A stretch of 64,000 nucleotides of DNA from NCBI GenBank assembly GCA_012799605.1, contig JAAZKX010000048.1, positions 1 through 64,000 on the forward strand, in the 5' to 3' direction. The DNA is from Bacillota bacterium. GTDB taxonomy: Bacteria > Bacillota > DTU030 > DUMP01. Position numbers and translations under genes: made by a program. Shown one piece after another: positions 55,976 to 57,990 of the stretch; within the stretch, counting starts at the first letter, position 1, and the number at the start of each line of letters is the position of its first letter. Under the pieces are notes generated by a model that saw only the letters and a list, made by a program, of their open reading frames with translations, made no database searches and was not told where the DNA came from.

Positions 55976-56006
55976 CTAATAAACAATGAAGCTGAGGGTG
56001 AACCTG

Positions 56007-57080
56007 GTGGAAAGACAACAGATAATTTTGGGAATCGAAACCTCATGTGATGAAACGGCAGCAGCCTTGGTAGCGGATGGTCAACATATTTTAGCCAACA
56101 CCATTTCTTCCCAGGTCGACTTACATGCCATTTACGGTGGGGTGGTGCCGGAGCTGGCCTCAAGGCGGCATGTGGAGCTGATCGTACCGGTAGTTAACGC
56201 AGCTTTAAAAGAAGCAGGGTTGACATTAAATGACGTAACGGCTGTAGCAGTTACAGCCGGCCCGGGGTTAATAGGAGCCCTGTTGGTTGGCTTGTCTTAT
56301 GCCAAGGGAATCGCTTTGGCTCGAAGTCTCCCTCTAATAGGTGTCCACCATATTGCCGCTCACATTTACGCTAACTGGCTTGTTTACCCACAGCTGAGGG
56401 CCCCGTTTTTAAGCTTGGTAGTTTCAGGCGGGCATACTTCGCTGATCCAAGTCGAGGGGCATGGTTGCTATCAGTTGTTGGGCAGCACAGTGGACGATGC
56501 CGCTGGGGAAGCTTTCGATAAGATCGCCCGTACCTTAGGCTTAGGCTATCCGGGCGGGCCCGCCATTGAACGTTTGGCCCAGGAAGGTGATCCAAGGGCC
56601 CTTTCCTTACCCCAGCCGGTAGTAAAAGGGCAACCGCTGGATTTCAGTTTTAGCGGACTTAAAACTGCAGTACTAAATTATCTAAACCGGCTCCATCAAC
56701 GCCAGGAACAGCCCAATAAAGCTGATGTAGCAGCTAGTTTACAACAGGCAGTGATTACTTCGCTAGTCGAGCGGACACTATTGGCCGCGGAAATTACTGG
56801 GCTGAAACAGGTCGCTCTGGCCGGCGGTGTGGCTGCCAATAAAGGGCTTCGGCAGGCACTAAAAACAGCCGGGGCTGAGCGCGGGTTGGAGGTTCTAGTT
56901 CCGCCGCCGGTTTTATGTACTGATAATGGGGCTATGGTGGCCTGTGCTGGATATTGGTATTTAAAACATGGTTTTACGGCACCACTGTCCTTAAATGCAA
57001 CCGCTAATTTGCCATTGGGATCCGAACAGGCCTGGGGAAAACTTGGGGAAAAAAAAGATAGTGCTGGCAAAAGCGGCTAA
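56007..57080 (+). CDS. tsaD: tRNA N6-adenosine threonylcarbamoyltransferase TsaD
   Basis: Catalytic subunit that transfers the threonylcarbamoyl group to A37. The 357-residue product shows LGIETSCDETAAALV, the metal ligands HHIAAH, SGGHTSLIQ, LGYPGGPAIERLA, and FSFSGLKTAVL. The GTG at 56007 is chosen because GAGGGTGA lies about five bases upstream; an ATG at 55986 has no ribosome site. It is the last gene of the tsa operon. The 3' flank carries the DnaA-box cluster. Confidence 0.96.
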   Translation: MERQQIILGIETSCDETAAALVADGQHILANTISSQVDLHAIYGGVVPELASRRHVELIVPVVNAALKEAGLTLNDVTAVAVTAGPGLIGALLVGLSYAKGIALARSLPLIGVHHIAAHIYANWLVYPQLRAPFLSLVVSGGHTSLIQVEGHGCYQLLGSTVDDAAGEAFDKIARTLGLGYPGGPAIERLAQEGDPRALSLPQPVVKGQPLDFSFSGLKTAVLNYLNRLHQRQEQPNKADVAASLQQAVITSLVERTLLAAEITGLKQVALAGGVAANKGLRQALKTAGAERGLEVLVPPPVLCTDNGAMVACAGYWYLKHGFTAPLSLNATANLPLGSEQAWGKLGEKKDSAGKSG

Positions 57081-57121: not shown

Positions 57122-57202
57122 TGTGGGTAATGTGGATAAGCGGTGAAAAATGTTGGTGGGAGCCGATCTGACTGTGGATAATCCTGTGGATTATGTGGAT
57201 AG
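57122..57202 (-). other. Cluster of five DnaA-box-like sites
   Basis: Read on the minus strand, five 9-mers match the DnaA box TTATCCACA. Two are exact (57131-57139 and 57173-57181) and three differ by one base (57122-57130, 57185-57193, 57194-57202). All have the same orientation, and two neighbouring pairs abut with 9-base spacing. The cluster lies between convergent tsaD and yigZ. No dnaA, dnaN or rpmH lies nearby, so an origin is unlikely; a DnaA-titrating cluster like those outside oriC in B. subtilis is the better reading. Confidence 0.75.
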
Positions 57203-57206
57203 TGGG

Positions 57207-57234
57207 AATAAGCACCCATGTTCGTGCTTATTTG
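57207..57234 (+). terminator. Terminator-like hairpin after tsaD
   Basis: AATAAGCAC pairs perfectly with GTGCTTATT around CCATGTTC. It sits between convergent tsaD and yigZ and could act in both directions, though no long T run follows. Confidence 0.55.
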
Positions 57235-57269: not shown

Positions 57270-57866
57270 CTAGGACCAATTTTCTATCCGGGCAATGTGT
57301 TGGACTTGGGTGGCGAAACTAGCTGCTTTAGACTGAGGTACGGCGACCTTGAGGGTAACTTGTTCTTTATAATCAGCTGCTAATACTTGGCCGCCGATTG
57401 TTTTAAGCAGGTGTAAACACCGGTCCAGCTCGGGGTAGCTGATAGTAATCCGAAAAGTTTCAGCAATAAGCTTGGCAGCAATTCCAGCTGCTGCTAAAGC
57501 CTGGCTAGCAGCCTGGCCATAAGCATCTATTAATCCGCGAATACCTAGTTTTTTTCCGCCATAATAACGTGTTACTACCACTAGTACATCGGTAAGCTCA
57601 AAGCTTAAAATGGCACGCATAATAGGCTCACCGGCAGTTCCGGTAGGTTCGCCAGCATCACTGGCAAAACGCGTGTCACGCCGGGGGTCTATGCGGTAGG
57701 CCCAGGCATTGTGAGTTGCTTGATGGTGCTGTTCGCTGCGGTTGGCAATTAAAATTTTTGCTTTTTGTTCTGAATCTACAGGGCGTACCCAGCCGATAAA
57801 GCGGGAACGCTCTATTTTTATTTCTACTTCGGCTTCCTGAGCCGGACTCCGGTAGACATCGACCAT
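57270..57866 (-). CDS. yigZ: YigZ/IMPACT family protein
   Basis: A 198-residue member of the UPF0029/IMPACT family. It shows IKIERSRFIGWVRPV, the family signature SDAGEPTGTAGEPIMRAI, and VVTRYYGGKKLGIRGLIDAYGQA. The N-terminal half is the conserved domain and the C-terminal half the DUF1949 ferredoxin-like domain. A role in translation stress has been proposed for relatives. The ATG at 57866 follows GGAGG by about six bases; an upstream extension is less likely. Confidence 0.9.
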   Translation of the reverse strand: MVDVYRSPAQEAEVEIKIERSRFIGWVRPVDSEQKAKILIANRSEQHHQATHNAWAYRIDPRRDTRFASDAGEPTGTAGEPIMRAILSFELTDVLVVVTRYYGGKKLGIRGLIDAYGQAASQALAAAGIAAKLIAETFRITISYPELDRCLHLLKTIGGQVLAADYKEQVTLKVAVPQSKAASFATQVQHIARIENWS

Positions 57867-57990
57867 GATGACACCTCCAATGCTTCTTATCACCATCATA
57901 ACATAGATTCATCTTTAGAGCGGTAGAGCCCGTAGTACCTAAGGTTATCCGGGCCAAAAGTAAAAAAATGATTAAAATATAGATTTGTTC

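Follow-up and report, generated by a model that had tools for sequence, protein, structure and literature searches.

In the window, that is, the whole stretch of 64,000 nucleotides analysed here, a cluster of five DnaA boxes lies between two convergent genes, tsaD and yigZ (Table 1). The first-pass annotation had placed the cluster between these genes, and Pfam bears out both of them; it had also described two exact boxes and three with one mismatch, all in one orientation, and all five were recovered at the same positions on the minus strand. The first box begins 41 bp past the tsaD stop. The density of the boxes had been regarded as far above chance, and this too holds good: boxes with at most one mismatch number 25 on both strands of the 64-kb window against 13.6 ± 3.9 in shuffled sequences, which gives an expectation of about 0.017 per 81 bp, so that the five boxes in 81 bp are not a matter of chance.

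Table 1. DnaA boxes and flanking genes at the tsaD locus (positions in the window).
Feature	Position	Strand	Basis and remarks
tsaD	55986..57080	+	Pfam TsaD, 4.8e-96; element adjoins 3' end
DnaA box A, TTACCCACA, 1 mismatch	57122..57130	-	Scan; box aligned in relatives
DnaA box B, TTATCCACA, exact	57131..57139	-	Scan; alignment with relatives; abuts A directly
B-D spacer, 33 bp	57140..57172	.	B to D, start to start, 42 bp
DnaA box D, TTATCCACA, exact	57173..57181	-	Scan; alignment with relatives
DnaA box E, TAATCCACA, 1 mismatch	57185..57193	-	Scan; alignment with relatives; 3-bp gap from D
DnaA box F, CTATCCACA, 1 mismatch	57194..57202	-	Scan; alignment with relatives; abuts E directly
yigZ/UPF0029	57270..57899	-	Pfam UPF0029, 1.3e-33; convergent neighbour, outside conserved unit

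Directly past box F, at 57,207-57,232, there is a perfect 9-bp inverted repeat, AATAAGCAC / GTGCTTATT, with an 8-nt loop; it has no T-run and is therefore not a canonical terminator. No promoter-like or canonical intrinsic terminator sequence was found at the site, and Rfam gave no match to an RNA element at the locus; a 76-nt stretch of it folds modestly better than its shuffles, which does not amount to evidence for an RNA. The organism's own DnaA is a normal DnaA whose DNA-binding-domain motif, GGRDHTTV, is identical to that of the best PDB match, so it is expected to read the same box.

Compared with related sequences, the five boxes in the window are the local version of an element that many Bacillota retain at one place, facing one way and with the same spacing. 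The sample comprised 177 distinct tsaD loci, in which boxes with at most one mismatch were counted in the sense of tsaD: their density was 9.35 per kb in the first 200 bp past tsaD and 2.27 per kb in the next 200 bp, against mostly 0.1-0.6 per kb elsewhere, and 79 of the 177 loci had three or more boxes per 300 bp, compared with 0 at two control offsets. A profile search, whose counts are partly circular because 20 of the tested loci went into the profile (the box counts of the 177 loci are not), placed the element within 500 bp of tsaD in 87 loci, all 87 in one orientation, and further downstream in six more, and it matched 23 of 39 named Bacillota (the tsaD element being missing in 16) versus none of 34 named non-Bacillota. 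In one genome, G098, the element stands 633 bp from tsaD. Moreover, on a tree of TsaD the element is present in every one of the 18 rows in the Bacilli clade, and the trait needs 17 changes on that tree versus 57 with shuffled labels. Such persistence, which extends to a place where Bacillus subtilis DnaA is known to bind, suggests that DnaA has long had a regulatory site here, away from the origin.

The element travels with tsaD, not with the neighbouring gene. The gene next to it in other genomes is lgt, an ABC-F gene, 5-formyl-THF cyclo-ligase, tsaB, rimI, murC, a radical SAM/PDZ protein, a transglycosylase or yigZ (for murC and the transglycosylase the identification was made by eye on the sequence), on either strand, and in the sampled Bacilli it is an ABC-F gene; a link of the element to yigZ is ruled out by this variation. 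At four loci (L304, L305, L306 and L308) at least one gene separates tsaD from the element, which is still present 1-3 kb downstream, and in the Thermosediminibacter group (L047 and L057) the element lies between tsaD and a convergent rimI or tsaB. At L047, from genome G048, the lagging strand carries tsaD, whose operon has apparently undergone rearrangement; the boxes still face with tsaD, which speaks against the idea that their orientation is kept for the replication fork. Box orientation follows tsaD, although a single inversion carrying both would explain G048 too.

In addition to place and orientation, the distances between boxes are conserved. The order in the loci is A, 9 bp, B, 12 bp and a weak C, then D at 42-44 bp from B, followed by 12 bp, E, 9 bp and F; box C is not recognisable in the window. 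The arrangement A-9-B-(42-44)-D occurs in 32 of the 78 loci with at least three boxes versus 0.7 expected and a maximum of 4 in 300 simulations, in which boxes were placed at random within the same span and the loci were treated as independent although they are related. In the alignment of relatives the sequence between boxes is not conserved, but the B-D length of 42-44 bp is. By simple arithmetic, spacings of 21, 42 and 63 bp are close to whole helical turns. Pairs of boxes separated by 2-3 bp are those that Escherichia coli DnaA binds best (PMC11317965); the 12-bp steps match these preferred gaps, and the 9-bp steps leave no gap. Several lineages (loci L181, L202, L136 and L174) appear to have two DnaA modules in tandem behind tsaD, about 89-98 bp apart.

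In the established nomenclature, gcp is tsaD. The gcp-ydiF cluster of Bacillus subtilis, one of six that this species has outside oriC, is a high-affinity DnaA site with a 16-fold preference for ATP-DnaA (PMC4447404). When all six non-origin clusters of B. subtilis are deleted, initiation takes place early, and one cluster put back relieves this partly; reviews describe the six as sites that hold DnaA and whose removal has a strong effect only if none is left, and they state that datA and DARS are missing from B. subtilis (PMC5295017, PMC13220808). The window site joins this known class of non-origin DnaA-box clusters, having several intergenic boxes away from oriC, and it occupies the same place as the gcp-ydiF cluster, directly 3' of gcp/tsaD between convergent genes, a comparison that rests on position and box number, the spacing being known from the other loci. 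A DnaA-binding cluster outside oriC, as in B. subtilis, had been proposed from the first, and for a predicted site this is well supported by the same position as the gcp-ydiF cluster, by the lack of a skew turn and by the location of dnaA on contig C69. The two clusters differ in that the other gene is ydiF (ABC-F) in B. subtilis and yigZ in the window, in that 10 predicted sites in 300 bp stand against 5 boxes in 81 bp, and in that DnaA binding is known from B. subtilis only, the window site being predicted; since the element follows tsaD, the ydiF neighbour is not a defining feature.

The reading that we favour, with a probability of about 0.6, is that the site binds DnaA outside the origin, corresponds in position to the gcp-ydiF cluster, and seeds a cooperative DnaA oligomer that helps to delay re-initiation. 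DnaA binding and ATP preference would be carried over from the equivalent B. subtilis site, and we infer that in this organism, too, DnaA binds to the element, which would hold initiation back by titration or modulation. The same-facing boxes with their 0-bp and 3-bp gaps, set in two groups with B and D 42-44 bp (about four helical turns) apart, would seed the oligomer, which probably favours ATP-DnaA, and with each module nucleating such an oligomer less DnaA would be available for initiation. Furthermore, the element usually lies in the early- to mid-replicating part of the chromosome (in 18 complete or near-complete chromosomes the distance from dnaA to tsaD amounts to 10-36% of the chromosome), so that its duplication after initiation would take up or alter free DnaA and re-initiation would thereby be delayed. 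Plain titration hardly accounts for a cluster that much of the phylum retains at the end of one gene, facing one way and with its spacing fixed, and this geometry suggests more than a passive sink; that plain titration needs less than fixed spacing is counted against the explanation given here.

The dense DnaA boxes, which share the box sequence of Bacillota oriC and are presumably served by the same DnaA, could also be taken as a replication origin, chromosomal or secondary. The first-pass annotation had held the site not to be the origin and had found no origin genes near it, and both statements stand: the GC skew is uniform, being positive throughout the window without a turn, and when oriC was looked for at dnaA-dnaN, dnaA and flanking boxes were found on contig C69, the window being on contig C11. 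The tsaD element is thus not at dnaA, and it differs from oriC in its spacing as well, for the same-strand box spacing seen most often at 27 dnaA loci is 12 bp, versus 9 and 42-44 bp in the tsaD element, and oriC boxes occur in both orientations. A main origin is excluded by the skew and the position of dnaA, and an origin of either kind is extremely improbable. The organism's own dnaA-dnaN gap (L249:2819-3030, on C69) has an exact DnaA box and then a CTACTACTA tract, which distinguishes it from the tsaD element and fits a bipartite Bacillota origin; the tract probably represents the DnaA-trios of the oriC unwinding region. A chance cluster or a functionless tandem duplication deserves no more credence, even though the boxes are short and some Bacillota are without the element, because it is refuted by conservation: one position recurs across many lineages, with variable sequence between the boxes but fixed spacing and orientation.

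A closer competitor of the proposed oligomer-seeding element is an active regulator of the nucleotide state of DnaA, like E. coli datA (ATP hydrolysis) or DARS (ADP release), as opposed to a passive sink. Spacing, orientation and position fixed over long evolutionary time would agree with such a regulator, as would the 16-fold preference for ATP-DnaA seen in B. subtilis (PMC4447404), and there are likenesses to both E. coli systems, datA being a non-coding locus of DnaA boxes away from oriC by which initiation is restrained, which is the role proposed for the window site, and DARS1 and DARS2 being small non-coding loci with a conserved arrangement of DnaA boxes. However, the core boxes I and II of DARS face each other whereas those in the window all face one way, and membership of the DARS type is excluded by the orientation of all five boxes on one strand (PMC8682772); datA has another genomic place and promotes ATP hydrolysis in an IHF-dependent manner, and B. 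subtilis is without Hda, DiaA and IHF (PMC13220808). We regard such a regulator as unlikely. Less likely again is that DnaA bound at the site controls transcription of tsaD or its neighbour by repression, roadblock or intergenic termination: B. subtilis DnaA does regulate genes at several other clusters (PMC4447404), and the element is always at the tsaD 3' end in the tsaD orientation, but it comes after tsaD, in the downstream direction, the gene that follows differs between genomes in both identity and strand, and the site has no promoter-like or canonical terminator match.

A literature search, with the primary papers on the B. subtilis clusters outside its range, found no report of fixed-spacing conservation across the phylum or of a second site, and priority for both is uncertain. 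The B. subtilis binding study had too few sites to learn the features behind the ATP-DnaA preference (PMC4447404); dozens of natural variants, among 87 near matches, make this question testable.

A model of the element, at E ≤ 0.01, has a match in 184 of the 200 genomes of the phylum set, many of the top-scoring matches lying beside tsaD, and in 12 of 16 named genomes the tsaD site outscores every other match in the genome when match coordinates are compared with tsaD positions. Moreover, a second recurrent site with the same geometry is present in many genomes near hpf-secA and comFC or flagellar genes (its loci were chosen by eye among the top matches), and the tsaD site and the second site are on opposite arms in seven of the eight chromosomes where both were placed. 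It is conceivable, though we put it forward tentatively and hold it to be rather doubtful, that Bacillota have long possessed two dedicated DnaA-regulatory elements with a shared geometry (A-9-B-12-C, D 42-44 bp from B, D-12-E-9-F), the first behind tsaD and the second near hpf-secA/comFC, as a rule on opposite arms, at which a defined DnaA complex would actively set the timing of initiation as a separately evolved Gram-positive counterpart of datA/DARS. A scan of the organism's own genome for comparable clusters, which covered the whole assembly (1.57 Mb, 89 contigs), gave TGTGGATNA pairs at most 30 bp apart at only two places, the tsaD site and C81:69133. The module at the latter place (C81:69129-69205, or L224:9130-9206) has box spacings of 9 and 43 and lies near hpf, an amino-acid ABC transporter and fliS.
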